Below are positions 1-37,197 of a stretch of DNA of 37,197 bases, piece after piece (the stretch's first letter is position 1; each line of letters starts with the position of its first letter). Below the pieces are notes generated by a model. That model worked only from the letters and a program-made list of their open reading frames with translations. It was not told where the DNA came from and did no database searches. Origin of the DNA: a virus; the IMG/VR virus record IMGVR_UViG_3300032288_001908, positions 1-37,197 of that record, one strand, 5' to 3'. A program made the translations under genes and the position numbers.

Positions 1-123
1 CTGCGTCTGGCTTCGCGGCAACGGGAGCTTTGTGCAGGTCCGGTTTCCGTCGGCGCTTTGCACAAAGTATGACATTACGTCGCAGGACGGCGCGGAAATC
101 GCGATTGCGATCGAAATCGAGGC
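1..123. repeat. Terminal direct repeat (left copy), circular-assembly overlap
   Basis: Bases 1-123 are identical to 37075-37197. The reading frame of the tail tube gene runs through the join without a break, so the two copies are one genomic segment sequenced once and written twice. The most likely reading is a circular or circularly permuted genome of 37,074 bp. A real short terminal repeat is possible, but it would lie inside a structural gene. Confidence 0.95.
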
Positions 124-199
124 TCGGCTGGATATGACGGTCTCGGGCGCACAGATTGGCGATAGCCCGTACCGGATTGAGTACATCGCGGCGGTTTGA
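1..199 (+). CDS. Major tail tube protein, C-terminal part
   Basis: This is the end of the gene that starts at 36710. The frame runs from base 2 to the TGA at 197-199. Joined across the circle the protein is 187 residues. It precedes the G/GT-type chaperone pair and the tape measure, which is the usual place for the tube protein of long-tailed phages. The C-terminal part seen here (about 65 residues) contains a run of alternating Ile/Ala/Glu residues typical of a beta strand and no cysteine-rich or catalytic motif. The role as tube subunit is inferred mainly from gene order and size. Confidence 0.75.
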   Translation, partial: CVWLRGNGSFVQVRFPSALCTKYDITSQDGAEIAIAIEIEARLDMTVSGAQIGDSPYRIEYIAAV

Positions 200-228
200 G
201 TTTTCACCCTGTCACCGGACCTGATCCC

Positions 229-555
229 ATGACATTGATTGACCTGGATGCGTTGGTTTCGCCCGATCGGTTGCCGAAGGTGCGGCTCTTTGGGCGGGAG
301 TTTGTGGTGCGACCGATGACAGGCGCGGCGGCGCATCGAATTGCGGCGGTGCAGACGGACGATGCGAGCGGCGCGGGGATGTTTACGGTGCTGCTCGAAA
401 CGGTCGGGCGCTCGATTCCGGAGCTGTCAAAGAAGGAGCTGGACGCGTTGACGGTGGAGCAGGTCATGGCCCTGGTGCAGTTGACGCGGGGCCAGATTGC
501 GGACGTCGAGTCGATGCTGGCCGCGCAAAATGAGGCACCAGCGGCGGGAAAGTAA
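229..555 (+). CDS. Tail assembly chaperone, G-type short product
   Basis: This 108-residue acidic protein lies between the tail tube and the tape measure, the position of lambda gpG. I chose the ATG at 229; a TTG at 196 would add 11 residues and overlap the tube stop codon. The last sense codons read GCG GGA AAG before TAA, and the bases 546-552 form GGGAAAG, the same slippery heptamer that lambda uses in G-T. A -1 slip there continues into the frame that ends at 938. The protein is expected to coat the tape measure during tail assembly and be absent from the virion. Function rests on synteny plus the frameshift signal, since this family diverges fast. Confidence 0.85.
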   Translation: MTLIDLDALVSPDRLPKVRLFGREFVVRPMTGAAAHRIAAVQTDDASGAGMFTVLLETVGRSIPELSKKELDALTVEQVMALVQLTRGQIADVESMLAAQNEAPAAGK

Positions 556-593
556 CAGGCGCGGCGTCCGGAGTGTCGGTGTCCTGGACGGCC
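546..593 (+). promoter_or_regulatory. Programmed -1 ribosomal frameshift site
   Basis: The heptamer G GGA AAG at 546-552 is in the X XXY YYZ register relative to the upstream frame, one codon before its TAA stop at 553-555. After a -1 slip the frame reads GTA ACA GGC and stays open to 938. About 10 nt downstream GGCGTCC (563-569) can pair with GGACG/GCC (586-593), a possible stimulatory hairpin. The heptamer and frames are seen directly; slippage is inferred from the lambda G/GT precedent. Confidence 0.9.
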
Positions 594-938
594 GTGCAGT
601 ACGTGACGCGGGTGATTGTTGAGGTGGCGCAGGAGACGGGGCAGTCGGTGCGGACGGTGGCGGGGGAATCGTTCGCGTTGACGTTGTGGACGTGGGGCGA
701 GTTGGCGCGGATACGGAAGGAGGCGCAAGTAGATCGGATGGGGGAACGCACGGACCTCGCGGGATTAGTCGCGGTGGCGTTCCATAAGCCGGAAGATTTG
801 CAGAAGGCTGAGTTCCGGTATTTGGCGGCGGCTGGCACGTTGTCGCAGATGATGGACGCGACGCGGGATCGGATGCGGGACCAGATGGCAGCAGTACAAC
901 GGGCGATTGCGGCGCGGGATTCTACGGCGACGGGGTGA
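573..938 (+). CDS. Tail assembly chaperone, T-domain (made as G-T frameshift fusion)
   Basis: The open frame upstream of this GTG extends back through 552, so this segment is best read as the C-terminal half of a 236-residue G-T fusion (229 to about 552, then 552-938) made by -1 frameshifting at 546-552. A GTG at 573 could in principle start it alone, but I see no convincing ribosome site there. The T-like part has a Trp-rich centre (LWTWGEL) and a basic helical C terminus. In lambda the T part recruits the tube protein to the chaperone-coated tape measure. The stop at 936-938 is followed at once by GAGGG and the tape measure ATG at 942. Confidence 0.85.
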   Translation: MSVSWTAVQYVTRVIVEVAQETGQSVRTVAGESFALTLWTWGELARIRKEAQVDRMGERTDLAGLVAVAFHKPEDLQKAEFRYLAAAGTLSQMMDATRDRMRDQMAAVQRAIAARDSTATG

Positions 939-941
939 GGG

Positions 942-2693
942 ATGGACGTCTTTGCATTAACGATGCGGCTGAAGGAGGAAGGGGCCGCGCAGGTCAAAGC
1001 GTCCGTTGATAAGCTTAAGACAAGCCTCGATCAAACAACGGCCAGCGCACAAAAGCTAGATACTGGTGCGACGACGTTACGCGAAGCGCAGCGCAAATGG
1101 GCCAGCGAGACGCGAGGTCTTGCATCGTCAATGGCGTCTGGCAATATGTCGTTGTCGGACGCATCGAAGCGATATGATGATATGATTGCAACGATGGCGG
1201 TTGCAAATCAAAAAGGTATCGAACAAAAAGCGGTTGTTGAGAAAGCAACCGGTGCTATGGCAGGTCAAAATTCTCAGGTGCGGAGTCTTAGAGATACGCT
1301 TGTCACGTTAGCAAGCGAAACATTGGGCGCGAATGCAGCCGGTGTCAGATTGACCAGCACGTTAGGAAGTATGGTTGCTGGACAAGCTTTGATTGTTGGT
1401 GTTCTTGCTGGCGTTGCTGCGATTTCTGCTGCATATGATGCATTAACTGCGGATACGCGCAAATTGACAGAAGAACAGGATAAAGCTGTAGAGGCGCTTA
1501 ATCGCGTAGCTCGTGCTCAACAATTTGGTGTTGGTGGAGAACTAGTATCACAAATTGACATCGCCAACAAAAAACTTAAAACGCTAAAAGACGAATTAAA
1601 GGCTGCTCAAAAACAATCAATTACACCTATTGTTGGTGGCGATATTGGTACGTTACCAAATCAAAATGCTGCGGAAGTTGCTGCGGCAAAAGAACGTGTT
1701 CGTGTTCTAAAAGAACAAATAGCAGCCGGTGAACGCGAACTGTTAAACGAAGTCAATGACGCCAACGCACGGTATTCGATGGAGCGATCGGAGCAATTGC
1801 GGTCGTTAGTCGAGGCCAATCGTGCGACGTTGGCCGAACAAGAAGAATATGCGCGTCGCCGCGTCAATATTGAGCAGCAACTTGCGGATAAAACGTTATC
1901 GGCAGCTAAGCGGTTGCAGATGATTGAACAGTTGCGGACACTGACGCCGAAAGAAAAAAAGCCAAAAGCCGAAAAAAAACCGCTCAAGTTGGCCGAGGTA
2001 TCAGATATTGGATCGGCATTTGCTCAATTGCGGGGCCGTATTCCGTTGCAGGAAATCACGATTCCGGTGATGCCAAAGATTGAACTGCCGCCAGAAATGG
2101 AAGGCGGGAAGGCGGGAGTCTTTGCCAAAGTGGGCGCGGATTTTGTGAACGGCTGGGCCGAAATGATGGATTCGGTCGGCGATCAACTCAGTAATATCCT
2201 GGTGGATAGCGTGGCGTCGGCGTTTGAAAACCTAGCCGCGACGGGCGGGTCGTTGAAGTCGGCGTTTAAGGTGTTGACGTCGGGTCTGTTGTCTGGTCTT
2301 GGCGGTATGTTGATTGAGTTCGGACGGTATGTCATCGTGGCGGGAAATTTGATGGCACGGGTAAAGGAATCACTTGCAAGCATGAACCCGGTCGCTGGCA
2401 TTGCCGCAGGTCTGGCAATGATTGCAATCGGTGGCATGTTGCGCGGCGCGGCGTCTCGATCGTTTAGCACGCCGAGCGGCGGCGGCGGTGGGGGCGGGGG
2501 ATATTCCGCAGGGATGCCAACGGGGAGCATGGCCTTTGCCACGCAGTATTACGGGCCAACCGCGGCTGGATCGGCCAATACGATCGAGCGGATCAATCCG
2601 GTCTCGGTCACGATTATCGGGCCGAATGATCCCGCGGCACAGCGGCAGATGCAGGAGTTGATCCGGAACGCGAACCGGCGAGGGAGCGTCTAA
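942..2693 (+). CDS. Tail tape measure protein
   Basis: The protein has 583 residues, short for a tape measure; by the lambda ratio of roughly 0.15 nm per residue it implies a tail somewhat under 100 nm. The N-terminal third and residues about 200-340 are charged and predicted to be coiled coil. Hydrophobic stretches lie near residues 140-165 and 440-500, followed by a glycine run and a Tyr/Gly/Ala-rich tail. It follows the G/GT chaperones directly, with a GAGGG ribosome site. Bases about 1020-1760 are clearly richer in A/T (runs of AAA, CAA, GTT and GCT codons) than the GCG/ACG/TCG-rich remainder, so the gene looks mosaic. No muralytic domain is visible. Confidence 0.88.
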   Translation: MDVFALTMRLKEEGAAQVKASVDKLKTSLDQTTASAQKLDTGATTLREAQRKWASETRGLASSMASGNMSLSDASKRYDDMIATMAVANQKGIEQKAVVEKATGAMAGQNSQVRSLRDTLVTLASETLGANAAGVRLTSTLGSMVAGQALIVGVLAGVAAISAAYDALTADTRKLTEEQDKAVEALNRVARAQQFGVGGELVSQIDIANKKLKTLKDELKAAQKQSITPIVGGDIGTLPNQNAAEVAAAKERVRVLKEQIAAGERELLNEVNDANARYSMERSEQLRSLVEANRATLAEQEEYARRRVNIEQQLADKTLSAAKRLQMIEQLRTLTPKEKKPKAEKKPLKLAEVSDIGSAFAQLRGRIPLQEITIPVMPKIELPPEMEGGKAGVFAKVGADFVNGWAEMMDSVGDQLSNILVDSVASAFENLAATGGSLKSAFKVLTSGLLSGLGGMLIEFGRYVIVAGNLMARVKESLASMNPVAGIAAGLAMIAIGGMLRGAASRSFSTPSGGGGGGGGYSAGMPTGSMAFATQYYGPTAAGSANTIERINPVSVTIIGPNDPAAQRQMQELIRNANRRGSV

Positions 2694-3127
2694 TGGCGTC
2701 GATCACGTTTAACGATGGGGCGTCGGCAACGCTCGATAATGGGTTGACCAGCACGGCGTCGGGGGTCGGGTCACGGTTTGCGTCCTGGACGCCGTTTACG
2801 CGGCGGGTAGGCGAACGGGCGACAACCCTGGCGACAGGAGCCAGCTTTGCGTTCACGTTCCGGATCGACTACGGCGCGACGTTTCAGATGCGGGAGTTGC
2901 CGAATACTACGCAGTCGGTGGCGATGCGGTTGATCCGGCACCTGCAAGGTGGCGGGACGTGTACGGTGACGACGGGCGACGCGGCGGCGCGGGTCTATAG
3001 CAACTGTTCGATTGATCCCGAGGGCGACGTCACGCTGGAGTTTCAGGACGCGACGTACCTGACGTATACCATGAACCTGGCGCTGATTAACCTATCAGCT
3101 GCCGATATGCTCTGTCTTTACGATTAA
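2693..3127 (+). CDS. Minor tail protein (possible distal tail or hub adaptor)
   Basis: This 144-residue protein starts with an ATG that overlaps the tape measure stop by one base (TAATG). It is rich in Thr, Ser and aromatic residues with alternating beta-like segments, and has two cysteines in its middle (a CTVTTGD segment and a YSNCSID segment). It sits between the tape measure and the giant tail-tip protein, where siphophages carry distal tail or tip proteins (the lambda M/L region). I do not recognise the family. Membership of the tail tip is inferred from position and translational coupling. Confidence 0.6.
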   Translation: MASITFNDGASATLDNGLTSTASGVGSRFASWTPFTRRVGERATTLATGASFAFTFRIDYGATFQMRELPNTTQSVAMRLIRHLQGGGTCTVTTGDAAARVYSNCSIDPEGDVTLEFQDATYLTYTMNLALINLSAADMLCLYD

Positions 3128-3142: not shown

Positions 3143-6100
3143 ATGCCGCAGACCGTTGAATATCGCCTGACGATCCGCAACGCCTCGACGGTCACTGATC
3201 CGAACGGGACCGCGGACGAGTTGGTGGTTACCAGTATCCGACTCGGGACCAATCCGTATATTGCCGCCGCGCCGTCGGGTGACGGAACGGAGATCGATCC
3301 GTTGACGGGGGCGACCCGTACCGGGGCGTACGTGGTCGAGGTAGTCGATGCGAATACGGGAACGGATGCGACAGGGACGATTCGGGTCGTTACCAACAAG
3401 CTAGAGGACGCGACGTACCGGCAGCAGTTGCTCTCGCGTCGGGCGTACGTGGACGTGATCCGCGATAGCGGGGCGTCGTCCCGTCTGATTGCGGGATATA
3501 TTAGCAACATCCGGCTGATTTCGCCGATGCGTTATGCCATCACGGTCGGCGATACGCGACGGGTGGAGCGGACGCAGACGATTTTTCAGGGCGCGGCGTT
3601 GGGCAGTTATACGACCCGCGGGTGTTTCCTGGGGGGACCGGTCACGCAGGATTTTGGCACGATCAAGTCCCGCGGCGGGTGGGAATATACGCTGACAAAT
3701 ATTGGGACGTCGATGTGGGAAGCGACGTTTGTTCGCGGGTACGGGCCAAAGGGGACGACGCCAAACGAGAAGGATTGGCGCAAACTGATTAATCCTCGGG
3801 CGCAACAAGTCCTGACCAGCTACACCCAACCGAACCCGTTTTCGAGTGGCGGCGCACCGAATACGTACGATTTCTGCTTTGCGTCAACCGATACGCAGGG
3901 AAATATCACGGACGGGGTGGTCGCGTTTATTGGCAGTAGCGCGACCAACGCGGTGGCGACAAACGCGGTCATTGTGGATAGCTCGGAGATCGCGGAGGAT
4001 AATCCGCTGTCGTCGGGTAAGTTGGTATTCTATTGGCCGTCGTGCCCGTACAGTTCGGGAAGCAAAGTCTATATCTCGCTGACGACGGCGAACGTGACGG
4101 AATCGTGCCCGTTGTATCTCGACGCGCATCCAGTGGATCTGGTGACGGCGATCTGGACGGCGGCGCGGGTGAACTACAACGCCTCGGGCGCGTGGATTAC
4201 GACCGTCCGCAACCTGATCGGGGCCAACGTGCGATTGGCGTGCCGGTTTGCGGACGCGCCAAAGATGGACGAGTTCCTGACCTCAGCGATCTATGGCCCG
4301 TTTGGCGTGGCCGAGCGGACGGATAGCGAGGGACGGCAAGAGTTGGTTCCGGCGCGGATAAAGGTCGATACTTTGCCGACGTTGCAGTTGACAGCGGCGG
4401 CGATGCGCGGGTATGAGGAGGTCGTCTTTGATCTGGATGAGCAGACGGCGGTCTCGGGTATTCGACTGACGCAGCAACTTCTGGCACCGGCCGAGTTCTA
4501 TTCCAACCCGATCAATGCGGGTGGCGCGGATCAATCGACGACGGATGACGGGCCGCTGGATGGCGTGACGGCGACGGAGTTTACGCAAACGGCCGAATAC
4601 CAAGATCCAAATTTGGCGGTTTTTGCTGGCAAGGTGATTGAGTACAAGGTGCCGGGGATGATTCATACCGCGGCTGATTTTGTGCCGAATACAGGAAGCC
4701 AACTGGCGGCAATCGCGGTCGGGACGTTTGATCGGTTCGGGCGCGGCTGTCAGGCGGCAGAGGTTGCGGTGCTGCAAACGGCGGCGGTGGCGGCGGCGCA
4801 GGTTGGTGATGAAATCTATTTTGAAGCGCCACATTTCCCGAATAAGGGATATCGGATTGGCGAGTCGAATGTCGGGGCGCGGATTATGCAGGTCGTGCGG
4901 CGTACAGAAACGCCGGAGGGGCCGGTATTTCGCCTCCTGGATTCCGGGTTAGCGGCGCAGCCGGTCGCGCCAGCGGCCACGATTACCGCAACGCAGAATC
5001 CGAACGCGCCGAGCACGGTGGCGCGGTTTACGATTACCAACGCCGCGGCGATCAATGCGACGGGCGTGCTGCAAGTGCGGATCGAGTGGGCGACGGGCGC
5101 AAGTGCGCCGACCGGCAACGGGGCCGATTTCGCGTTGTATACGGCGGGTCAGGTGCCAACAGGTGCGGTCGATCTCCCGCCAGTAACGACGGCGGGGACA
5201 ACGGTCTATGTCAGGGCGCGGACGGAACAAGCGGGGCGTCGGCCGTCGGCATGGACGGCATGGGCGTCGGTGGCCTTGGTCAATATTCCGACGCCTTCGG
5301 GCGCGGCGGTGTCGAATATTCGTCAGACGGCGGCGACGTTGACGTGGACCAACACGTCGAACACGTTGGCGCTGGCGGTCTTTGCCTCGCCGGGGATTGG
5401 GGCTCCCGCGTCCTGGACGCCGTATCGGGTAGGGACCCTTCCGGCGCGGTCCACATCGACGATTATTCGGAGCCTGACGGGACCGTCGGTCGCGTGGACG
5501 TTGGGCGTGGCGTACGAAACGGCGCAAGCGGTCGGGCCGGTGGCGTCGGTGGCGATGACGACCAACAGTACCCTCGATACGCCGACTCGTCCCGCGGGAT
5601 TGGCGGTCATTCCTGGCGTCGATGACGCGACGTTGACGCAGGGGATTGCGTTGGCGCTCTGGGCGTCCGATCAAACGCTGGATTTGGTCATTCAGCGCAG
5701 CACGACCAGCGGATCGGGCTTTGCGACGATTGCGACGGTGGCAGGGTCGACGTCGGTGTACGTCGATCAATTGCCGCGGAACGGGACCACCTATTATTAC
5801 CGGATCGCGCATACATTGGGCGGGTATGCGACCTCAACCTATACGGCCGAGGTATCGGCGACGCCTCGCGGCGTACCGCCGAACGTGGCCCGTCCTGGCG
5901 CGGTCGCGCCGGTCGTGCAGGTTGCGACGACGGAAGTCGGGACAACGGCGACAGTCACGTTGACGATTACCGATCCGCAGAATCGCGTGACGTTGGTGCG
6001 GTTCCGGGATCGGACGAACGGCGGCGCGTGGTCGGCGTGGACGAACGATAGCACGGTGCCGTACACGTACTCGGCCACAATTCCGTCTAGCGGATACGTG

Positions 6101-8185
6101 CAGATCGAGTATGAGGTGCAGGGATTTGACGCAGCGGGGACGTCGGAACAAGTCCTCGCGGGTGGCGTCGAATCGTTTGACCTTGGGACCGGCGCCAACA
6201 TGGTGTCGGTGGTCGGGACGTTTACGTCAGCGTCGGCGATGAATTTGGCGATCAGCGCCGATTCAGATACGGCGTCGATTCGCTTCGCGACCAGCACGGT
6301 CAGCCAGCCGACGTTGGCGACCGTCCAAGCGCAGACGGCGATCAATCAGCGGAATTATTCGACCCTGCTTCCTGGGCCGTATAGCAGCGGGACGACGGTC
6401 TACGTATCCGTCCTCGGATACACGGCGATTAACGGCGGCGGGACGGAATCGGCGCTGTTTCAATACCAGTTTACCCGAGACGCGGGTGGATTGACGTATT
6501 CGCAGTGTATTGCGACGATGGCGGCGAGTTCGGCGACGCAAATCGTGGTGACGGTTACGGGGACGGCGGCGACGGGATCGCCGACGGTGCAGTTGGTGGC
6601 GGTCACGGGCTCGGCGACGTTGGCCAGCGGTGCGGCGATTGGCACACCGGTCGCGTCCGGATCGCAATGGACGTTTAACCGCGGCGCGGCGTTGGGTCAG
6701 CCTGGCGGGGCGCAGTTTCGGGCGGTACTCGCGGGGACGCAGAGCGACGATGATTTTATCGAGATCCCGGAACAGGGACGGGATACCACCTATCTTGCAA
6801 GCCGTGCGCGGGTGATTGCCACAACCGATACGACAGTCACGGCGCGATATGCGGTCGCCGATCCGTATCCGCAGGGCGCAAATACCGTCACGGTCGCCTA
6901 TCAAAACCTTGGGTCGCCTGGGGTAACGCCAGCGAGCGGTGGGACGTTGACGCCTCAGGCAACGCTGACGGAGGCGGCGGGAACGTATATCGACTATACG
7001 ATTACGCGACCGCCGTTTGGATCGGGGACGGCGCGGGTGACGTATACGGCGACCGCGGCCAATCGGGTGTCGGATTCGGACGCGGTAGACGTTCCCGCGG
7101 TTGAGCGGGATACGATCAGTCTGTCGGCGCGAGCGCGGGTCACGTCCACCACGGCGACGACGCAGGTCGTTCGCGTAGCGGTGGCCGATCCGCAACCGAC
7201 CGTACCAATCACCTCAATCACGGGCGCGACCGTTACGACGAGCGGTCCGCATAATCAGACGGGGACGTTTACGGTCGTCATTTCTGGCAATAGCAACGCG
7301 GCGTATAACGGGACGTGGACGGCGACGGTATTGACGTCGATCACGTTCAACCTCAGCACGTCGTCGACGTCTGGCACGGGTGGGACGGCGGCGCCACAGA
7401 ATTATTGCACGATCGCGTATAGCGTCACGGGCTTGGCGACGCCGACGCAAGTGGGTGGAGCGGCCCTTCCTGGCACGATCACAGTCACGCCGCAGACGGC
7501 GTTGAACGAAGCGGCGGGGACGTATTACGATTTCCAGATTACCAGACCGGCGTCGGCGCAGCCACCGGGACGAATCAACTTTACGGTAACGGCGGGTGGG
7601 CGAGCGCCAGCGGCTCCCGCGGCGTCAGTGGTGGCGCAGGATATTGTTGGGCCAAGCCTCAAAGTGGTGACCACGCCAGCGGCGTCGTTGTATTCGATGC
7701 TCATCACGTACGACGGAACAATCAGCTATTCGTTGGACGGGGTGGCGCAATCAACGGCGGGGTGGACGTCACCGTATGGGTTGGTAGTGGCGCGGAATGA
7801 GTATCTTGGGGCCACGCAGGTGGTGGCCCTATCCGTGGCGCGGGACGGGTCGACGGTTTCCGAAACGGTCAACGTGCCACCAAAGGATAACGCCAACGCC
7901 TCGATCACGATCGGTACGCAGACTGCGGATAACGTAAGCAATACGTACACGTTTACGTGGTCCACGTCGGGTATGCCGACGGGAACAACGTACGATCTGA
8001 CGTACACGACGACGACGACCAGCGGCGTGGTCGAGCAGGGCACGCTGAATAGTCAAACGTCGCCGGTCAATGTGGTCTCGGCCTTTTCTATTGGCCTAAA
8101 TCCAAAGTATCAAATGACGGTGACGGCGATCAAATCAGGGACGTTGGTGCTGGTCAAGAGTCGATCGGGGACATTCCTGGTCTAG
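3143..8185 (+). CDS. Tail tip/central fibre protein with fibronectin-like repeats
   Basis: At 1680 residues this is the largest protein of the genome and occupies the place of lambda gpJ. Residues about 1-620 form a unique N-terminal part with alternating beta segments, probably the hub that docks on the tail tip. From about residue 620 onward the protein is a chain of Thr/Ser/Ala/Gly-rich beta domains. Several look like fibronectin type III, for example around 800-905 with a TYYYRI core. Residues about 1210-1500 hold two tandem related units that share ARARV, AVADP and EAAGTY segments; the second unit has an extra ~60-residue module inserted (residues ~1355-1417). The C-terminal end is likely exposed and may contact the host surface. 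Hub and receptor roles are inferred. Confidence 0.78.
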   Translation: MPQTVEYRLTIRNASTVTDPNGTADELVVTSIRLGTNPYIAAAPSGDGTEIDPLTGATRTGAYVVEVVDANTGTDATGTIRVVTNKLEDATYRQQLLSRRAYVDVIRDSGASSRLIAGYISNIRLISPMRYAITVGDTRRVERTQTIFQGAALGSYTTRGCFLGGPVTQDFGTIKSRGGWEYTLTNIGTSMWEATFVRGYGPKGTTPNEKDWRKLINPRAQQVLTSYTQPNPFSSGGAPNTYDFCFASTDTQGNITDGVVAFIGSSATNAVATNAVIVDSSEIAEDNPLSSGKLVFYWPSCPYSSGSKVYISLTTANVTESCPLYLDAHPVDLVTAIWTAARVNYNASGAWITTVRNLIGANVRLACRFADAPKMDEFLTSAIYGPFGVAERTDSEGRQELVPARIKVDTLPTLQLTAAAMRGYEEVVFDLDEQTAVSGIRLTQQLLAPAEFYSNPINAGGADQSTTDDGPLDGVTATEFTQTAEYQDPNLAVFAGKVIEYKVPGMIHTAADFVPNTGSQLAAIAVGTFDRFGRGCQAAEVAVLQTAAVAAAQVGDEIYFEAPHFPNKGYRIGESNVGARIMQVVRRTETPEGPVFRLLDSGLAAQPVAPAATITATQNPNAPSTVARFTITNAAAINATGVLQVRIEWATGASAPTGNGADFALYTAGQVPTGAVDLPPVTTAGTTVYVRARTEQAGRRPSAWTAWASVALVNIPTPSGAAVSNIRQTAATLTWTNTSNTLALAVFASPGIGAPASWTPYRVGTLPARSTSTIIRSLTGPSVAWTLGVAYETAQAVGPVASVAMTTNSTLDTPTRPAGLAVIPGVDDATLTQGIALALWASDQTLDLVIQRSTTSGSGFATIATVAGSTSVYVDQLPRNGTTYYYRIAHTLGGYATSTYTAEVSATPRGVPPNVARPGAVAPVVQVATTEVGTTATVTLTITDPQNRVTLVRFRDRTNGGAWSAWTNDSTVPYTYSATIPSSGYVQIEYEVQGFDAAGTSEQVLAGGVESFDLGTGANMVSVVGTFTSASAMNLAISADSDTASIRFATSTVSQPTLATVQAQTAINQRNYSTLLPGPYSSGTTVYVSVLGYTAINGGGTESALFQYQFTRDAGGLTYSQCIATMAASSATQIVVTVTGTAATGSPTVQLVAVTGSATLASGAAIGTPVASGSQWTFNRGAALGQPGGAQFRAVLAGTQSDDDFIEIPEQGRDTTYLASRARVIATTDTTVTARYAVADPYPQGANTVTVAYQNLGSPGVTPASGGTLTPQATLTEAAGTYIDYTITRPPFGSGTARVTYTATAANRVSDSDAVDVPAVERDTISLSARARVTSTTATTQVVRVAVADPQPTVPITSITGATVTTSGPHNQTGTFTVVISGNSNAAYNGTWTATVLTSITFNLSTSSTSGTGGTAAPQNYCTIAYSVTGLATPTQVGGAALPGTITVTPQTALNEAAGTYYDFQITRPASAQPPGRINFTVTAGGRAPAAPAASVVAQDIVGPSLKVVTTPAASLYSMLITYDGTISYSLDGVAQSTAGWTSPYGLVVARNEYLGATQVVALSVARDGSTVSETVNVPPKDNANASITIGTQTADNVSNTYTFTWSTSGMPTGTTYDLTYTTTTTSGVVEQGTLNSQTSPVNVVSAFSIGLNPKYQMTVTAIKSGTLVLVKSRSGTFLV

Positions 8186-8219: not shown

Positions 8220-9326
8220 ATGCGTCTACACTTGCTCGGGATTCCGCACACGGTCACGCATTCGGCGTGGTCGCATTGTGCGTTTACGCAAAAGGTGCGG
8301 CGGTTTGCGCCAATGGTTCAACCGTACGGATGGGAGGTCATCCATTACGGCGTCGCGGGGTCGGAATCCGGGGCGACGGAGGATGTCGTCCTGATGGACC
8401 AAGACGAGCATCAGGACCTGCTCGGGCATCCCTATAGCCATGACCAGCTCTACGGCGCGGACGCGGTAGACGGGTCCGCGGTCTATCGACAGTGGAACCT
8501 GTATGCGCGGAACGAGCTCGACGATCGCGTGGTCCCTGGGGATCTGATCCTGCTACCGTTCGGTCACGCGCACGCGGCGGCGATCCGGTCCCTTCGGGTA
8601 TTGACGCAAGGCGCGGGGGCGATCGAGTCCGGGATTGGGTATTACGATACCCTGCTGCCCTGGCGCATTTGGGAATCGTACGCGGCGCGGCACGCGGCGA
8701 TGGGGCGCGAGGGGCGGCATGGGGTGTCGATCGACTCGACGCGGTTGGAGTTTGTGGTGCCCAATTATTACGATGTCGCGGAGTGGCCGTTTGCTGGCGG
8801 CGATCGGTCGGACGCGCCGGTGGTGTTTATGGGGCGATTGGTTGAGGCGAAGGGATTGCCGATCGTCCTGGCGGTGGCGCGAGCGCGGCCGGACGTGCGG
8901 TTTCAGATTGTTGGGCAGGGCGATATTGCGGCGTTTGATCTGCCCAAGAATGTGGAATATTTGGGCGTCCTCGGCGCGGAACGGGCGGCGGTCCTGGGGG
9001 CGGCGCGAGCGATTATTGCGCCGAGTCGATACGTGGAGCCGTTTTGCGGGTCGGTGGTCGAGGCGCAACTTTGCGGGACGCCAGCAATCACGTCGGATTT
9101 TGGGGCGTTTGCGGAAACGGTGCAGCACGGGATTACGGGGTTCCGGTGCCAGACGGAGGGCGAGTTTATTCGGGCGGTCGATCGCGTCCTAAACTTGAAT
9201 CGCGGGACAATCCGAAAACGCGCAGAACGGTTGTGGGCTGCGCCGCGGGTCGGTCGGTTGTACCATGAAGCGTTTGAGGTGGTGCGCGAGCGGTTGGCGT
9301 CGGGCGGGTTTCCGTTGGGGTGGTGA
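8220..9326 (+). CDS. GT-B family glycosyltransferase (GT4-like)
   Basis: The protein has 368 residues. The C-terminal half carries the retaining GT-B signature: VFMGRLVEAKG at about residue 200, then an EX7E motif with Glu273 and Glu281 (EPFCGSVVE) followed by GTPAI and an FxExV turn. These bind the nucleotide sugar in GT4 enzymes. The N-terminal half is more divergent and should hold the acceptor site. A good AGGAGG ribosome site at about 8205-8210 precedes the ATG. The gene lies between tail and lysis genes, so it is probably expressed late and may decorate a virion protein (the Ser/Thr-rich tail and repeat proteins are candidates) or alter the host envelope. Enzyme class is well supported; donor and acceptor are unknown. 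Confidence 0.87.
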   Translation: MRLHLLGIPHTVTHSAWSHCAFTQKVRRFAPMVQPYGWEVIHYGVAGSESGATEDVVLMDQDEHQDLLGHPYSHDQLYGADAVDGSAVYRQWNLYARNELDDRVVPGDLILLPFGHAHAAAIRSLRVLTQGAGAIESGIGYYDTLLPWRIWESYAARHAAMGREGRHGVSIDSTRLEFVVPNYYDVAEWPFAGGDRSDAPVVFMGRLVEAKGLPIVLAVARARPDVRFQIVGQGDIAAFDLPKNVEYLGVLGAERAAVLGAARAIIAPSRYVEPFCGSVVEAQLCGTPAITSDFGAFAETVQHGITGFRCQTEGEFIRAVDRVLNLNRGTIRKRAERLWAAPRVGRLYHEAFEVVRERLASGGFPLGW

Positions 9327-10325: not shown

Positions 10326-10646
10326 GTGATCGTGGATTGGGTCAAAGTGAAGGCGATCGAATACGTATGGGCGTTGATCGTTGGGCCGTTGGCCGCGGTC
10401 ATTGTGCAGGGCCTGAAGGCGTACGTGATTTGGGTCGAAAGTCTCAGCGCATGGCGCAAACGGGCGTTTGTGGTCGTCACGGTCACGGTCCTGACGCTCC
10501 TGGGAGGCGTCACCGGGGTCGACTTTGGGTTGAAGGGCGACGACCTATCCGTCCTGGCGAACATCGACGCGGAGGCGATCAAGATCGTCCTCGGGTCCGT
10601 CTTTGCGATGGGGTTGCACGCGGTCAAAAAGCAACTCGGGAAGTAG
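10326..10646 (+). CDS. Holin-like membrane protein
   Basis: This 106-residue protein has three likely membrane segments, at about residues 10-33, 46-63 and 82-100, and a basic C-terminal end (HAVKKQLGK). That is the usual layout of class I holins. It starts at the GTG at 10326 (an in-frame GTG at 10332 is also possible) just after GGGGG, a plausible ribosome site. It is the last gene before a long intergenic region and a terminator at 10823-10849, so it closes the late transcription unit. Which of the two membrane proteins beside the endolysin makes the lethal hole cannot be told from sequence. Confidence 0.72.
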   Translation: MIVDWVKVKAIEYVWALIVGPLAAVIVQGLKAYVIWVESLSAWRKRAFVVVTVTVLTLLGGVTGVDFGLKGDDLSVLANIDAEAIKIVLGSVFAMGLHAVKKQLGK

Positions 10647-10853: not shown

Positions 10854-10873
10854 TTTCCTGGCGTGGTCATCCA

Positions 10874-29097: not shown

Positions 29098-30195
29098 ATG
29101 TTAGCTGATCGACTTCGCATGGCGGTAAACGCCAACTCTGTCCCACCGGCTGCACCGGGGCAACAGCTTTATAGCGTCGCTGGGACGTACAACTTTATTG
29201 TTCCAACGGGTGTAACGTCAATTTGCTTTTGCTGTGTTGGCGGCGGCGGCGCTGGAGCAAATGGGAATGTTTCAACTACTTCCACAACAAATGGAGGGTA
29301 TGGAGCTGGCGGGGGCGGTCTTTTATACACTAATAACGTCAGCGTAACTCCCGGCGCGTCATACATTGTTGTTGTTGGAGCTGGCGGAAATCCAACCACA
29401 GGCGCTGCGGGAAACGGGAACCCAGGAGGAAGCAGCTATATCCAAATCTCTCCGTACCAATACACAGCCGCTGGTGGCACTGGTGGAACATTTTCTGCTG
29501 CTGGTGGCGGCGGTACTGGCGATGGCGGAGGCGCGAGTGGTGTCACTGTGATGAGTGGCGGCAATGGCGGGATTTCACGGTATTCTACAACACAGTGGTA
29601 TGACGCTGGGTGGCAAAACTACTACTACGTAGGCGGTGGCGGTGGAGGCGGTGCTGCGGGATATTCTGCAAACGGTGGAGCTGGAGGAAATGCTGGAAGC
29701 GTAAATCTCAGCGTTGCAGCAAGCAGTGGAGCTACCAGTACCAACGGAGGAGGCGGAGGGTCTGGCGGCTGGTCTGGCGAAATTATTGATGGAGATAATG
29801 GTATATACGCTCCATATGTAACAGGCGGTGGCGGCGGTGGCGGTGTAGGAATGAAGGGGCTTGGAGTTTCAGGCGCCTTAGGTGGAAGCGGAAACGATAC
29901 GGGCGTTGGAGGGTATGCTACATACCCGGCACAAGGCGGTGGTGGCGGCAGCACCAACGGCTATGGGACAAACACTGGCACAACGGGTGGGCAAAGTGTT
30001 GCCGGTGATGTTGGAGGGTCCGGAGGGTTCCCCGGCGGAGGCGGCGGAGGCGGAGGAACACAAGTGACATATATCCCTCCAACGCCATTCCCCGATAGCG
30101 CAACGTATGCAGTTGGTGGGCAAGGAGGAGTTGGCGCTGTACGCATTATTTGGGGCACAGGTCGATCATATCCTAACAACGCATCGGACGTATGA
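29098..30195 (+). CDS. Glycine-rich adhesin (polyglycine-type tail fibre tip)
   Basis: The protein has 365 residues. Residues 1-25 repeat the fibre's LADRL-type beginning. A beta domain (YNFIVPTGVTSICFCCVGGGGAG) follows, then about 250 residues of glycine runs broken by short Ser/Thr/Asn/Tyr segments, and a C-terminal GGVGAVRIIWGTGRSYP motif common in phage glycine-rich fibre proteins. Such runs can pack as polyglycine II helices, as in the gp38-type adhesins of T4-like phages, where the loops set host range. The codons (GGA, GCT, ACA) differ from the genome backbone. It lies between the fibre gene and a fibre chaperone. Confidence 0.78.
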   Translation: MLADRLRMAVNANSVPPAAPGQQLYSVAGTYNFIVPTGVTSICFCCVGGGGAGANGNVSTTSTTNGGYGAGGGGLLYTNNVSVTPGASYIVVVGAGGNPTTGAAGNGNPGGSSYIQISPYQYTAAGGTGGTFSAAGGGGTGDGGGASGVTVMSGGNGGISRYSTTQWYDAGWQNYYYVGGGGGGGAAGYSANGGAGGNAGSVNLSVAASSGATSTNGGGGGSGGWSGEIIDGDNGIYAPYVTGGGGGGGVGMKGLGVSGALGGSGNDTGVGGYATYPAQGGGGGSTNGYGTNTGTTGGQSVAGDVGGSGGFPGGGGGGGGTQVTYIPPTPFPDSATYAVGGQGGVGAVRIIWGTGRSYPNNASDV

Positions 30196-30713: not shown

Positions 30714-31109
30714 ATGTCGGTCACACTAAATATCAATCTGAAAAACGATCTGCTGGACGGGATCGACACGGTATTTAACAACGGGACGCTAGAGATCCGG
30801 ACGGGTGCGCCTCCTGGGGCGGGGGCAACGGCCACCGGTACCGTCCTGGTGACGATTACGCTGCCAGCGGATGCGTTCAATCCAGCGAGCGGCGGTCAGA
30901 AAACCAAGTCTGGCACATGGCAGGATCTTGCGGCTGACGCGACCGGCACTGCGGGATACTTCCGGATGACGAATACGGGCGGGAGCCGCGTCCTGGAAGG
31001 GACGGTCACGGCGACGGGTGGCGGCGGGGATATGCAACTCGACAATACGTCGATTGCGGTGGGGCAGCAGGTCACGGTCACGGCGTTCACGTTGAGCAGC
31101 GGCAACTAA
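30714..31109 (+). CDS. Small beta-rich structural protein, paralogue A
   Basis: This 131-residue protein has a short N-terminal helix (LKNDLLDGIDTVFNNG) and then Gly/Thr-rich strands: GTLEIRTG, VLVTITLP, YFRMTN and LDNTSIAVGQQVTVTAFTL. The next gene encodes a protein with the same layout and the same LDNTSI...GQ.VT ending, so the two are tandem paralogues. This family is common among environmental phages beside fibre genes but has no known function. It is probably a virion surface protein. Confidence 0.7.
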   Translation: MSVTLNINLKNDLLDGIDTVFNNGTLEIRTGAPPGAGATATGTVLVTITLPADAFNPASGGQKTKSGTWQDLAADATGTAGYFRMTNTGGSRVLEGTVTATGGGGDMQLDNTSIAVGQQVTVTAFTLSSGN

Positions 31110-31523: not shown

Positions 31524-33992
31524 ATGGCGCTTGGTACACCCACCGACGGCGGCGCGGCGTATTCCGCGACAAACGGCACATCGGTCGCGCCTGTCTATCC
31601 CGCAGGTATTGCGGCCAATGATGTGGTGTTGTTGGTCGTTGGGCAAAAGCCAAGCGCGGCAAACGGTGGCACGGTCACCACGCCGACAGGATGGACGCTT
31701 CGCGAATCGCTGACGGGCGCTGGAGGATATGGCGCAACGCTCGGCGCGGATACTGGCAACACCAACCTGTTCATTTATAGTAAAGACACAGTTGCCGGAA
31801 CAGAAACAGGGACACTGACCGTCACGATCGGCGCGAATAGCGTCTCTTGGGCGCTCATTGTGCGTATTCCCACGGCGGGTGTCGGTGCCACGTTTGCGTA
31901 TGGAAGCGCGGACGGATCGCGCACGACCGCGCCGACGAGTGGTGTGGCATTTACTACAGTCCTAACGAACGGGACAACCGCGCCAGCGTTGCAGTCGGGT
32001 GATATGGCCGTGTGGGCCATGTGCATTCCGACGGACGTCAACCTAAACTGGGCCAGTTTGCCAACCCTTACTTCCACCGGCACCACGTTTGCCACAGCGG
32101 TGGAGTTGGAGGAGCCGAACAACGGCAACGGCAACGACATTGGTGGGTATGTCGCGTATGCGTTAGCGACGGCGGGGACGAGCGCGGTCGCGCCGACGGT
32201 TGGCGTGACGGGCACGGGCACGATGACGAACGTGCGTGGCCCGATTGCGTTGGTTCGCGTGCGCGAGACGTTGCCGACAATTAGCGGCAGTTTGGCGGTC
32301 ACAGAATCCGGCGCAGATACGTTTGCCGGATTGGGTGATGTCATTGTATCCGGCGCGTTTGCGGCGACGGAGACGGGCAACGATACGTTTGCGGCTACAG
32401 GAACGGTCGCATGGCCTGAGGTAACGGGCACGTTGGCGGCGACGGAATCCGGCGCGGATACGTTTGCCGCGACGGGATCGGTCACTGACCCGGCGATCAC
32501 GGGCACGTTGGCCGCGACGGAATCCGGCGCGGATACGGCGACGATCGCGGGTCAGGTCATTGTTGCGGGGACGTTTGGCGCGACAGAATCCGGTGCGGAT
32601 GTCCTGGCGGCGACGGGCACGGTTGCGTGGCCGACGATTTCCGGGGCATTGGCGGCGAGCGAAAACGGGTTCGATACGTTTGCGGCATTGGGCGCGGTTG
32701 AGATCCGCGGAATCCTAGCGGCGACGGAATCCGGCGACGATGCGTTTGCGGGGTCCGGTTCGGTTGTTGTTGCGGGGACGTTAAGCGCGACGGAATTGGG
32801 ATCGGACGTTTTTGCAGCCGCGGGGACGGTGGAGATCCGCGGGGCGTTGGATGCGACGGAAACGGGCGCGGATACGTTCCTGGCGAGTGGCGCGGTCACA
32901 ATCTCGGGCGCGTTGAGTGCGACGGAATCCGGCGCGGATGTCCTCGCGGCGGTAGGTCAGGTAGTGGTTTTCGGCGCGTTGGCGGTGACCGAATCCGGCG
33001 ATGATGCGTTTGCGGCGGCGGGGACGGTCGATGTCCTTGGGGCGTTGGCGGGAGTCGAGGTTGGGTCGGATACGTTCCTGGCGAACGGCGCGGTTGAAAT
33101 TGCGGGGACGTTGGCCGCGATTGAGACGGGAGAGGATACGTTCGCGGCGAGCGGGTCGGTCACCGATCCGGCGATTGTTGGGGATTTCGCGGCGGTTGAA
33201 GTCGGGACCGACACGACGGCAATAGATGGCCGCGTGCTGGTTGCGGGTTCTCTCGCGGCTGACGAAACGGGCGCGGATACGGCGGCGATTGCGGGGACAG
33301 TAGCAATCGCGGGGTCGGGGACGGCGGTCCTCGGACTCGATGTTTCGGCGTTTATGGAAAATACGTCGAACGTCACGGCCGTCATTTTTATCGTGCAAAC
33401 GGTCGAAGCGTCGGTCACGTCGGCGGTTGACGGGTCGGCGGTCTGTTCCCTGATCGTCAATAGCGCGGCGACGGGGGCGGTCGCGAGTGCGGCGACGGCG
33501 ACGGCGGCGTTGTTGGTAGATGCTGACGGGGCGGCGGCGGTCGATATATCGGCGGTGGGCGCGGCGTCCCTAGGGATTGAGGCGAGCGCCGCGGCGGTCA
33601 CGAATACCCGCGGCGAGGGAGCGGCGGTCCTAGCGATCGGTACAGATGCGACGGGATCGGTAGCAATCCTGGCGACGGGTCAGGCGGGGTTGGTGGTCGG
33701 CGTCGCGGCGACGGGTCAGACGGACGGCAATGTTGCGTTTGTCGTCCTGACGATTGGCGTCACAGCGACGGTCTCGATTCCGGTGCCGGTGACGGTAGTT
33801 CCCGCTAATACGCTCCGAATTGCGGCAAATAAAGCAACAACCGGGGTGCGGGTGGTCGATCGTTTGTGTACGGCTATGCCGCGCATTTCGACGACGAAAA
33901 CGGATAGCATTAATAGCGGCCCTCGGGTACGCACGACCAGCGTTGTGACGACGCGGCGGGTTCGGGCCGTGGCGTCCATTATTCCACGATAA
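31524..33992 (+). CDS. Large repeat protein, 15 units of about 22-25 residues
   Basis: The protein has 822 residues. Residues 1-250 form an N-terminal beta domain with a LVVGQK and GWTLRESLTG pattern, similar to N-terminal parts of other phage surface proteins. Residues about 253-594 are 15 tandem repeats with consensus GxLAATESGADTFAAxGxV followed by a short linker of 2-5 residues. Residues 595-822 are Ala/Val-rich strands and a basic C terminus. A repetitive beta structure on the virion surface is likely. No catalytic motif or signal peptide is seen. Binding to host or environmental glycans is possible but not shown. Confidence 0.75.
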   Translation: MALGTPTDGGAAYSATNGTSVAPVYPAGIAANDVVLLVVGQKPSAANGGTVTTPTGWTLRESLTGAGGYGATLGADTGNTNLFIYSKDTVAGTETGTLTVTIGANSVSWALIVRIPTAGVGATFAYGSADGSRTTAPTSGVAFTTVLTNGTTAPALQSGDMAVWAMCIPTDVNLNWASLPTLTSTGTTFATAVELEEPNNGNGNDIGGYVAYALATAGTSAVAPTVGVTGTGTMTNVRGPIALVRVRETLPTISGSLAVTESGADTFAGLGDVIVSGAFAATETGNDTFAATGTVAWPEVTGTLAATESGADTFAATGSVTDPAITGTLAATESGADTATIAGQVIVAGTFGATESGADVLAATGTVAWPTISGALAASENGFDTFAALGAVEIRGILAATESGDDAFAGSGSVVVAGTLSATELGSDVFAAAGTVEIRGALDATETGADTFLASGAVTISGALSATESGADVLAAVGQVVVFGALAVTESGDDAFAAAGTVDVLGALAGVEVGSDTFLANGAVEIAGTLAAIETGEDTFAASGSVTDPAIVGDFAAVEVGTDTTAIDGRVLVAGSLAADETGADTAAIAGTVAIAGSGTAVLGLDVSAFMENTSNVTAVIFIVQTVEASVTSAVDGSAVCSLIVNSAATGAVASAATATAALLVDADGAAAVDISAVGAASLGIEASAAAVTNTRGEGAAVLAIGTDATGSVAILATGQAGLVVGVAATGQTDGNVAFVVLTIGVTATVSIPVPVTVVPANTLRIAANKATTGVRVVDRLCTAMPRISTTKTDSINSGPRVRTTSVVTTRRVRAVASIIPR
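32280..33305 (+). repeat. Coding tandem repeats, about 66-75 bp, 15 units
   Basis: Each unit encodes GxLAATESGADTFAAxGxV plus a linker. Eleven units are 22 residues; four have an extra 3 residues (a WP or DP insertion). DNA copies are diverged in third positions, so the array is old or under diversifying drift, not a recent expansion. Confidence 0.85.
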
Positions 33993-34429: not shown

Positions 34430-35410
34430 ATGCTCGGAACCTTTCCGCTAAGTACCCTACCGCTGTCGTCCCTCGGGACGGTGGCGCTGGCGTTGTCGGC
34501 GGCGGTCGGGACGTTCAATAGTAGCGGTCAGACGGCGGCATTCCGTCTCAATCGAGCGTCCGAGGTCGGCGCGTTTGCGTTGACGGGCCAAGCGGCAACG
34601 ACGACCCGCACGGGAATCGTCCCTGGAGCGGCGGGGTCGTTTGTCCTGGCGGGTCAGGCGGCGACGATCCAACGGACGGCGATAGTGTCTGGCGGTGCGG
34701 GATCGTTTGTCCTGACGGGTCAGGCGGCGACGGTTCAAGCGACGCGAGTTCTGGCAAGTAGCGCGGGATCGTTTGCCGCGGTGGGGTTTCCGGCGCAATT
34801 CCATACGATTCGGCAGTCCGGGGCGGCGGCGTTTGTCCTGACGGGGAAAGCGGCGACGTTTGCGACGGGGAACGGGGTGCAGGGTGGACCGGGAACCTTT
34901 GCGCTGACGGGACAGGCGGCGACGTTTGCCGCAAGTTTGAGCGTTGCGGGTGGTCCGGGGACGTTCACGGCGACGGGCCAGACGGCGGTGTTGCGCTACG
35001 GTCGCTCGATTACGGGCGGCGTCGGAGCGTTTCACGTCACGGGTCAGGCCGCGGAGTTGCTTCGCGGATACCAGTTTGGGGCAAATCCTGGCGCGTTTGC
35101 GCTATCGGGCCAAGCCGCGGGATTGTTGCGCGGTCGAGTTATTGGGGTCGATGGCGGTGCGTTTGCCTTGACGGGTCAGGCGGCGGCGTTTGCGGTCACG
35201 CTACGTATCCCGTGTGCTGTCGGGGCGTTGGCGTTGACGGGACAGGCGGCGCGGCTCGGCCGCGGTCGCGTGCTTATGGCCGATCGTGGCATATTTATCC
35301 TGACCGGAAATGCGGCTGGTTTGCAAGAAGATACGGTGGTCCGACTTCGCGGCCGGGATTTCTCCGGGTCGCAGTATCTGGTGCGGGATGAATCGGAGGG
35401 CTACTGGTAA
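34430..35410 (+). CDS. Repeat protein, 13 units of about 22 residues
   Basis: The protein has 326 residues. The N terminus (LGTFPLSTLPLSSLG) is a conserved beginning seen in phage repeat proteins of this kind. Residues about 26-300 are 13 tandem units with consensus GxFALTGQAAxxxxGRxIxxx. The last 25 residues (RDFSGSQYLVRDESEGYW) are unique and acidic. The unit length nearly equals that of the repeat protein upstream, but the consensus sequences differ. It has a TAAGGAG site and its stop overlaps the next ATG. Likely a beta-repeat virion surface protein of unknown function. Confidence 0.75.
   Translation: MLGTFPLSTLPLSSLGTVALALSAAVGTFNSSGQTAAFRLNRASEVGAFALTGQAATTTRTGIVPGAAGSFVLAGQAATIQRTAIVSGGAGSFVLTGQAATVQATRVLASSAGSFAAVGFPAQFHTIRQSGAAAFVLTGKAATFATGNGVQGGPGTFALTGQAATFAASLSVAGGPGTFTATGQTAVLRYGRSITGGVGAFHVTGQAAELLRGYQFGANPGAFALSGQAAGLLRGRVIGVDGGAFALTGQAAAFAVTLRIPCAVGALALTGQAARLGRGRVLMADRGIFILTGNAAGLQEDTVVRLRGRDFSGSQYLVRDESEGYW
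34505..35330 (+). repeat. Coding tandem repeats, about 66 bp, 13 units
   Basis: Units encode GxFALTGQAA plus a variable 12-residue part. Units 1 and 5 are shorter (20 residues). The GGTCAGGCGGCG-like DNA core is well kept, while the remainder varies. Confidence 0.85.
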
Positions 35411-35775
35411 TGGCAACGCCTGTCACATATAAGCGAATCCACACGGCCAATGCGTTCCTGGCGCGGTCGGTGATCGAGCGGTATGACGCGACGACGGATG
35501 CGTATATTCCGTATACGAACGGGTCGGCGACGACGACGGTCGGCTACTATACGGGGATGGATGGCACGGGCGCAATTGCGGGGCTCACTGGATTGCCGAT
35601 GGCCGAGGTGGCAGGAGCGCCGGGAACCTATGCGGCCACGGTGCCGTCGGCGTTGTTGACCGCGCTCACGCCGTACGACGGGCAGGTCATCTATCAGATC
35701 GTCCGAGCGGGGGCGACGAATAACCTGCAAGTCGTGACACCGTTGATGGTGACGGTGCCGCGGTGGGCGCAATGA
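35410..35775 (+). CDS. Hypothetical structural protein (121 aa)
   Basis: The ATG overlaps the preceding TAA by one base. The 121-residue protein has a Tyr/Thr-rich middle (YTGMDGTGAIAGLTG) and ends in strands (GQVIYQIVRAG, VTPLMVTVPR). No motif is recognised. Translational coupling to the repeat protein on one side and to the tail completion gene on the other suggests a virion role. Confidence 0.62.
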   Translation: MATPVTYKRIHTANAFLARSVIERYDATTDAYIPYTNGSATTTVGYYTGMDGTGAIAGLTGLPMAEVAGAPGTYAATVPSALLTALTPYDGQVIYQIVRAGATNNLQVVTPLMVTVPRWAQ

Positions 35776-36161
35776 GCGTCACGGTCGTCAATAAGAGCGG
35801 GGCGGTCCCTGGTCGATGGGATGACGCAAGCCGTTTGGGATTGGCGGCGGCGGTCAACGTCCTAAAAACGGCAGTCCTGAAAGAGTTTGGGTCGGACTAC
35901 TATAAAGGCGGAGCGTTCCGCTCGACGTTGCAGGTCAAGCAATCGGTTCGGGTATTGCAGCCGTACAAGACGCCGAGCGGATGGGAAACCATTATCGGGA
36001 CGAAGCATATTGAGGCGCTGTATTGGGAGCTTGGGCACCAGAACCGATGGACGCGGAAGTATGAACGGCGGCGTATTTGGGAACCGGCCGGGATTTCCAG
36101 CACGTCCGATATGCGGTCGGCGTACGGGCGCGTGGTGGCGCGAGTTATGGGGAAGGCGTAA
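35772..36161 (+). CDS. Tail completion/neck protein, HK97 gp10-like
   Basis: I use the ATG at 35772, which overlaps the preceding TGA; a GTG at 35763 is possible. The 129-residue protein has the gp10-family look: a long N-terminal helix (GLAAAVNVLKTAVLKEF), a central strand pair, and the motif HIEALYWELGHQNRW...RRRIWEPAG. HK97 gp10-type proteins join the tail terminator region to the head. It overlaps the next gene by one base (TAATG). Confidence 0.75.
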   Translation: MSVTVVNKSGAVPGRWDDASRLGLAAAVNVLKTAVLKEFGSDYYKGGAFRSTLQVKQSVRVLQPYKTPSGWETIIGTKHIEALYWELGHQNRWTRKYERRRIWEPAGISSTSDMRSAYGRVVARVMGKA

Positions 36162-36667
36162 TGGGCCAGCAAAAGCCGAGGTATGTCGTCCCTGGGAGCC
36201 TGAATAAGGCGCAAGCGACCAATTCAACGGTCCAGATTTACGCGACAATCCGGCAGGCGTTGTTGGATTACGTGACGCCGCAGAAGGAGATGTTGCGGGA
36301 GATCGTGGGCGACCCGCCGCGGATCTACGTCCGGTCGGCACCGGACGGGGTAATCTTTCCCTACCTGACCCTGTTGATGTCGCGCACGTCCCTGGCGGCG
36401 TATAATGGGTACCGGGAGACGGCGTTGCTAGAAGTGCAGTGCCTTGGGCGTCCGGAGTCGCAGTTGCCGATGGTGGAAACGGCGATGGATCTGGTCGATC
36501 AATGCCTGACGGCATATACCAATCCCGCGTCGGGGTTGATCGTCGGGCGATCGCGGACGCGGGACACGGTGCCGATGTTTAGCGATCCCGCGGAATCGAC
36601 GGTTGTTGGGGTAGTAGCGCGGTATGAGTTGTTTTTATGGCCCACAGTATTGACCTCTCGGGCCTAG
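36161..36667 (+). CDS. Tail terminator protein (probable)
   Basis: The ATG at 36161 overlaps the preceding stop. The 168-residue protein has a first helix (VQIYATIRQALLDYV), the pattern IYVRSAPDGVIFPYLTLLMSR, a strand ALLEVQCLG and a long helix (METAMDLVDQCLTAY). This is the general layout of lambda gpU-like terminators, which cap the tail tube. It lies between the gp10-like protein and the tube protein, the expected position. Confidence 0.75.
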   Translation: MGQQKPRYVVPGSLNKAQATNSTVQIYATIRQALLDYVTPQKEMLREIVGDPPRIYVRSAPDGVIFPYLTLLMSRTSLAAYNGYRETALLEVQCLGRPESQLPMVETAMDLVDQCLTAYTNPASGLIVGRSRTRDTVPMFSDPAESTVVGVVARYELFLWPTVLTSRA

Positions 36668-36709
36668 GGTGCAGGGCGCAGGGTTCACTTTTTCTGAGGA
36701 TATGACACG

Positions 36710-37197
36710 ATGACGGCTCCACTTTCAGGGTATACCGCGACGCTCCCGGCCGACGTCGTGCTCGATTCCGGCCAGTTGTATATCGGTGCAACAGTCATGG
36801 GCGCGTTCAACGGGGGACTCAAGTTCGACCCCGGCGTCGAATACCGCAACATTGAGTTTGACGGCAAGCGGTCGCCAATCACGGCGCTGGACCGCAAGAC
36901 GGGTTTCATGCCGAAGGTCAGCGGCACGGTCATTCAGTTGTCGACGGGGAACGTGGCGCAGATTGAACCGGGGGCGGCGTTGACGGTTGGCGGCGCGTGG
37001 ACAGGTTCGACGTCGTATATGCCGAAGGATGCGGCGGGATTTCTGGCCGCGGGGGATTACCTGACGGACGTGCGCTGCGTCTGGCTTCGCGGCAACGGGA
37101 GCTTTGTGCAGGTCCGGTTTCCGTCGGCGCTTTGCACAAAGTATGACATTACGTCGCAGGACGGCGCGGAAATCGCGATTGCGATCGAAATCGAGGC
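36710..37197 (+). CDS. Major tail tube protein, N-terminal part
   Basis: The gene starts at the ATG at 36710 after a GAGGA site and continues at base 124 of the window (equivalent to 37198), ending at 199. The full product is 187 residues. The segment here begins TAPLSGYTATLPADVVLDSGQLYIGATVMGAFNGG and continues with alternating strands, a layout like tube proteins of siphophages. It sits between the tail terminator and the frameshifted chaperone pair, the standard place for the tube subunit. A second structural copy is not seen, so this should be the only tube protein. Confidence 0.78.
   Translation, partial: MTAPLSGYTATLPADVVLDSGQLYIGATVMGAFNGGLKFDPGVEYRNIEFDGKRSPITALDRKTGFMPKVSGTVIQLSTGNVAQIEPGAALTVGGAWTGSTSYMPKDAAGFLAAGDYLTDVRCVWLRGNGSFVQVRFPSALCTKYDITSQDGAEIAIAIEIE
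37075..37197. repeat. Terminal direct repeat (right copy), circular-assembly overlap
   Basis: Identical to 1-123. See the left copy; the tail tube frame crosses the join intact. Confidence 0.95.

Follow-up and report, generated by a model that had tools for sequence, protein, structure and literature searches.

Near-total loss of CCAGG from the gene-sense strand of a phage genome, accompanied by an excess of oriented TCCTGG

Why would a phage genome carry a short DNA word in essentially one orientation, and in many more copies than expected? The question is raised by the IMG/VR virus record IMGVR_UViG_3300032288_001908, of which we have analysed positions 1 to 37,197 (the window, 37,197 nucleotides). 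There, an initial annotation made from the sequence had counted about 50 copies of the hexamer TCCTGG on the + strand, compared to a single CCAGGA at position 29431. The exact number of TCCTGG is 50 and CCAGGA does occur only once, with its start located at 29422 instead. The pronounced asymmetry, which had been considered notable in itself, is less informative. According to our own gene calls every gene of the window resides on the + strand, and since many words become strongly skewed in such a layout, the raw 50:1 ratio means little. Equal skew is found in other words, many of them rich in G, such as GGGCGC (54:0) and CGCAGG (32:0), and we have thus discarded the raw strand ratio as evidence. 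In the following, a:b refers to counts of two words on the + strand and a/b to observed and expected counts, the latter obtained from codon-aware null models.

The identification of the hexamer core as a CCWGG site, already part of the initial annotation, proved to be the key, since CCTGG and CCAGG are found at 85:2 on the + strand of the window. The codon-corrected counts are 2/30 for CCAGG and 75/39 for CCTGG. The loss affects the exact word, as its neighbours with an altered last base (CCAGA 26/30, CCAGC 51/35, CCAGT 19/21) or first base (ACAGG 22/27, GCAGG 59/58, TCAGG 30/23) are found near or above expectation, and it occurs whatever the flank, thus extending beyond CCAGGA alone. In the other biased phages described below, pooled counts of CCAGG are 0/74, with one-base neighbours again near expectation, and binomial P values for the loss are 8.5e-17 in the window and 2.6e-13 and 3.7e-06 in its relatives G010 and G008. 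The two copies that remain in the window are confined to a tail-fibre segment of atypical composition (Table 1), which we read as a recent acquisition. This near-total loss of exact CCAGG is a stronger fact than the raw ratio of TCCTGG. Deamination of methylated CCAGG to CTAGG was ruled out as its origin, with CTAGG not being enriched (2/6 and 0/5).

The kept orientation is enriched in a six-base form. Synonymous shuffling within genes predicts 12.7 ± 3.3 coding copies of TCCTGG, of which 48 are observed (z 10.6), placing the word at rank 1 among all hexamers, whereas CCAGGA is found once compared to 7.7 expected copies. If dinucleotides across codon borders are retained, the expectation is 23.2 (z 7.8) and the word again takes rank 1. 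Synonymous sequences sampled from phase-specific Markov models contain 6–11 copies; TCCTGG was masked in the training of these models, which lowers the expectation, and 23.2 is thus the more cautious figure. The excess amounts to 3.8-fold by shuffling and 2-fold under the stricter null. The ranking of hexamers against Markov and codon-shuffle models, suggested in the initial annotation, therefore favoured neither codon pairs nor an equal enrichment of many hexamers. All three codon phases contribute as anticipated, with each register being enriched (9/2.9, 27/8.7 and 12/1.4), and the copy described in noncoding DNA at 10854 is located outside called genes at 10856, with another one at 17507. 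Serine is encoded by TCC at 9 of 13 positions preceding Trp and at 3 of 72 preceding other codons that start with T (7 of 11 and 3 of 75, P 6e-6, in an automatic gene set). Similarly, CCT is chosen in 12 of 17 T-Pro-Gly contexts, and NTC precedes CTG-G in 27 cases compared to 12.7 expected. TCCTGG occupies 48 of the 137 places where the protein permits the word, and these are more evenly spaced than in a random draw of permitted places (coefficient of variation 0.73 compared to 0.94 expected, P 0.014), with P values for spacing and composition uncorrected for the several tests made. In the two atypical segments, which had been noted as nearly devoid of the word, it is used at none of 10 encodable places. 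The enrichment in three registers, the context-aware nulls, the Ser-Trp test and the even spacing all support the original proposal of an oriented signal at the level of DNA instead of a codon-pair effect, and the preference for TCCTGG is both positive and frame-independent. Part of the gain has a simpler source: since the codons CCA, CCC and CCG are all disfavoured before GG, CCT-GG is favoured and the kept orientation gains some copies. The preference for TCCTGG exceeds what this displacement gives, and the excess may reflect a second, positively selected oriented signal that is separate from the purge.

Relatives of the phage, for whose first 25 kb no near DNA match was found among known phages, were gathered in searches with its terminase, portal, annealing and capsid proteins, while a search with a tail protein did not detect contigs beyond G001 and G002. 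These relatives display CCWGG in different states. Both orientations are missing in G012 (0/75 and 0/46) and L101 (0/37 and 0/36), reduced in G014, G005 and G006, and enriched in L246 (69/27 and 43/27) and L072 (36/20 and 45/23), the last two being the opposite of their relatives. In a polarised state, CCTGG is near expectation and CCAGG is zero, as observed in G010 (83:0), G008 (35:0), L211, L021, L019, L022, L023 and L024. The initial annotation had proposed to look for the same oriented motif in related phages, and its polarised state is indeed present in several lineages. In a tree of capsid proteins, where several rows are short fragments and some state labels thus provisional, this label must have changed four or more times along branches with good support. 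It appears in three places, comprising the window's group, L021/L196 and the G010 group, with CCWGG-free and mixed states in between. The terminase of G010 is less similar to that of the window than the one of G001. The polarised group also prefers TCCTGG, with TCC used at 5 of 10 Ser-Trp positions compared to 8 of 85 (P 0.004) and NTC favoured ahead of CTG-G (P 5e-5). At aligned sites with conserved protein sequence, the word is found at 0 of 56 places in five relatives outside the polarised group and at 6 of 18 in G010, where one of the six was counted twice in two overlapping alignments. In G001 and G002 (L081-L083), depletion of CCWGG leaves the context GCCTGGC, with GCCTGG at 15/16 and TCCTGG at 0/8 in G001. 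The word CTCGAG is almost fourfold enriched in L091, L092 and L090 (G010, G008), with 73 vs 19 copies in G010.

In a wider survey of 115 contigs, a non-random phage sample, 52 strand-specific purges of a 5-mer were detected in 61,240 tests. CCAGG was the commonest with three events, two of which belong to the window's own family, the window included. An otherwise unrelated phage of 57 kb, G440, was found by searching with the C5-cytosine DNA methyltransferase of the window. It contains CCTGG at 71/88 and CCAGG at 7/40, the only strand-specific 5-mer purge of that genome. Its opposite-strand open reading frames (ORFs), including one repressor-like gene, are too few to decide between strand and sense, and a homology search with an opposite-strand ORF gave no match. 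G017 (L182-L184; CCAGG 222 : CCTGG 0), a candidate for a mirror case, was set aside, as many other 5-mers are strand-purged in this genome, which displays an extreme oligonucleotide vocabulary. A search for the host by terminase retrieved one phage-size contig of a Burkholderiales metagenome-assembled genome (CCWGG 0:0), and a search for the capsid in 399 Burkholderiales genomes returned only the phage-size contig that had served as search centre.

Table 1. Oriented CCWGG sites and other features of the window.
Feature	Position	Strand	Remark
Oriented CCWGG set	1..37197	+	85 CCTGG (50 as TCCTGG), 2 CCAGG
CCAGG, one of two	28969..28973	+	within atypical tail-fibre segment
CCAGG, second of two	29422..29426	+	sole CCAGGA; within atypical tail-fibre segment
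Atypical segment	942..2160	+	contains no TCCTGG
Atypical tail-fibre segment	28140..30810	+	no TCCTGG; contains both CCAGG
TCCTGG	582..587, 2197..2202, 2783..2788, 3627..3632, 4935..4940, 5411..5416, 5611..5616	+	
TCCTGG	5893..5898, 6370..6375, 7468..7473, 8175..8180, 8866..8871, 8992..8997, 10498..10503, 10552..10557	+	
TCCTGG	10856..10861, 17507..17512	+	outside called genes
TCCTGG	12248..12253, 14203..14208, 19194..19199, 23054..23059, 26506..26511	+	homologous place in G010 holds same word
TCCTGG	12458..12463, 12933..12938, 13744..13749, 16064..16069, 16247..16252, 16943..16948	+	
TCCTGG	19786..19791, 20831..20836, 21876..21881, 22472..22477, 23590..23595, 23652..23657	+	
TCCTGG	24237..24242, 25220..25225, 25893..25898, 26438..26443, 26843..26848	+	
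TCCTGG	28137..28142	+	final copy ahead of atypical tail-fibre segment
TCCTGG	30812..30817	+	first copy past atypical tail-fibre segment
TCCTGG	30844..30849, 30991..30996, 32602..32607, 32878..32883, 33076..33081	+	
TCCTGG	33667..33672, 34644..34649, 35086..35091, 35456..35461	+	
Erf-type single-strand annealing protein	12100..12843	+	
C5-cytosine DNA methyltransferase	13270..14373	+	
VRR-NUC domain nuclease	16332..16751	+	
ParB-N plus N6/N4 DNA methyltransferase	17568..18785	+	CCWGG-free relatives carry one too

On both strands of the window, GGCGGA (7 vs 62) and GCGGGC (3 vs 48) are nearly missing, GAAGAC is absent (0 vs 13) and the palindromes GCGCGC, CGCGCG, GCCGGC, GGCGCC, GGATCC and CCCGGG are nearly missing as well, which appear as further restriction-like avoidances. 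A glycosyltransferase-like gene (PHROG 3408, 8220-9326) is kept across many relatives, and no tRNA gene was found in the window.

We tentatively favour, with slightly less than even confidence, that the pattern of the window stems from strand-asymmetric avoidance of a host restriction enzyme for which CCAGG has a direction and two copies must lie head-to-head. The host range of the phage would include a restriction system recognizing CCAGG (CCTGG on the opposite strand) as asymmetric site and cutting only between oppositely facing copies, like Type III, Type ISP and perhaps MmeI-type enzymes. A phage with all sites facing the same way would escape cutting, and each site in the minority orientation would be selected against and eventually lost. 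Once CCTGG alone is allowed, synonymous choice would shift towards it, a change that is observed for CCT-GG. Type III enzymes cleave DNA only if two of their sites are inverted relative to each other, and the strand bias of T7 towards EcoP15I, which recognizes CAGCAG, is documented (PMC3874151). On the entire strand of T7, CTGCTG:CAGCAG is 36:0, with 32/22 and 0/8 in coding regions. As in the window, an exact short asymmetric word is concerned and the minority orientation is absent, which in T7 is explained by the head-to-head requirement. The window differs in that its word is the near-palindrome CCAGG/CCTGG and that the bias recurs in several lineages. Moreover, while the kept orientation is near expectation in G010, G008 and G440, the six-base form in the window strongly exceeds it (48 vs 12.7), and the T7/EcoP15I class thus covers only the purge. 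In T7 (L181), CTGATG (34:0) is as strand-biased as CTGCTG. Head-to-head sites are also required by Type ISP enzymes and have been proposed to be so for MmeI-type (IIL) enzymes (PMC3874165). Both share asymmetric continuous sites and the modification of one strand, although no such enzyme of CCAGG specificity was identified for this phage. Avoidance of EcoRII, PspGI or MvaI-type enzymes concerns the same five-base word, and many relatives lack both orientations as would be expected in this case. Both words are depleted in G012, whereas the window keeps and enriches one of them (CCTGG 75/39). With EcoRII-type enzymes, the W bases in the middle of the site are flipped out (PMC4081073), for which reason these enzymes should not sense orientation.

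Several observations weigh against avoidance of an orientation-reading enzyme. A Type III or ISP system with CCAGG as its site was not found, nor was one looked for in a host genome, and the model predicts the loss of one orientation instead of an excess of TCCTGG, with the enrichment in T7 being only 1.45-fold. Relatives without CCWGG on both strands resemble ordinary Type II avoidance, and that it concerns the same word would then have to be coincidental. As CCTGG is the word retained on the sense strand of every biased phage, an effect at the RNA level may be involved, for which the few + strand ORFs of G440 are too weak a test. Finally, strand-asymmetric avoidance was not found to be systematic in a survey of phages (PMC6286503).

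Among the alternatives, it appears unlikely that TCCTGG is a Chi-like or KOPS-like signal, by which the host directs recombination or segregation and which the phage has gathered in the orientation that is of use. Such a role would account for positive selection in all registers, the orientation and the even spacing of the word, and its absence from the atypical segments. It would also be in line with the presence of an Erf annealing protein and with the observation that phages without RecBCD inhibitors retain enrichment of the host Chi (PMC3784561), as no such inhibitor was recognised among the proteins searched. Like Chi sites recognized by RecBCD or AddAB, the word is oriented, over-represented, frame-independent and spread over the genome. 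A reversed Chi is neutral, whereas the reversed word is erased in the window (CCAGGA 1/7.7, CCAGG 2/30). The loss in every flank, which Chi does not require, would have to be a second effect or result from harm by reversed copies. CCTGG is near expectation in G010, G008 and G440. The Chi-like motif of the initial annotation was in this way not demonstrated, and the pattern of an oriented restriction site fits the purge better than Chi does. A codon-pair or context bias that alone yields the hexamer is highly improbable. The preferences for border dinucleotides nearly double the expectation from 12.7 to 23.2, and CCT-GG is favoured as described. However, TCCTGG keeps rank 1 under each null, and the choice of TCC before Trp and the difference between G010 and the five unbiased relatives at conserved sites are not accounted for. 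As none of the three synonymous models predicts about 48 copies, we have rejected this bias as sufficient cause.

It is quite unlikely that the bias originates from the C5-methyltransferase of the phage, which would mark one strand of CCTGG/CCAGG and place all marks on the same strand if the sites share one orientation, so that each round of replication would leave one of the daughter duplexes with full protection. Among the compared genes of the window, this is the only one whose matches in the family members compared are limited to the biased phages G010 (61%) and, in part, G002 (39%). G440 is likewise biased, and its enzyme is 71% identical in the catalytic part. The link between the enzyme and the biased state is an association found in few genomes, and could stem from a shared host. 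The recognition region in G440 differs from that of the window as judged by reading, the carrier L266 lacks nearly all CCWGG sites on both strands, two CCWGG-free phages bear larger C5 enzymes, and such enzymes usually modify both strands of near-palindromes. Between the methyltransferases of the window, L265 and L266, the catalytic part is conserved and the recognition region different, which suggests an exchange of domains. We consider it very unlikely that the transcript is the target of selection, in which case a factor that cleaves or binds RNA would cause CCAGG to be avoided in mRNA and UCCUGG to be favoured. Strand and sense are inseparable in the one-way genes of the window and G010, and the bias invariably leaves CCTGG on the sense strand. 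Conversely, relatives of the same clade without both words suggest an agent acting on double-stranded DNA, and the other-strand ORFs of G440, most of which may be false calls, do not show a loss of CCAGG (9/8.3).

Avoidance of an orientation-reading restriction enzyme thus explains the purge of CCAGG and leaves the excess of TCCTGG unexplained. In a broader and somewhat unlikely scenario, distinct from both simple restriction avoidance and Chi, several lineages would share an oriented CCTGG code, with TCCTGG preferred, positively selected and evenly spaced and reversed copies cleared, that would be read by a directional DNA machine, perhaps in conjunction with the phage C5-methyltransferase. 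Strand-asymmetric avoidance has one textbook case in T7 and EcoP15I. Close relatives of the window differ in whether CCWGG is missing, depleted, enriched or polarised, which offers a natural experiment on the escape from enzymes that require two facing sites. If confirmed, the positive pull on TCCTGG would point to a further oriented signal, embedded by phages in their coding sequence.

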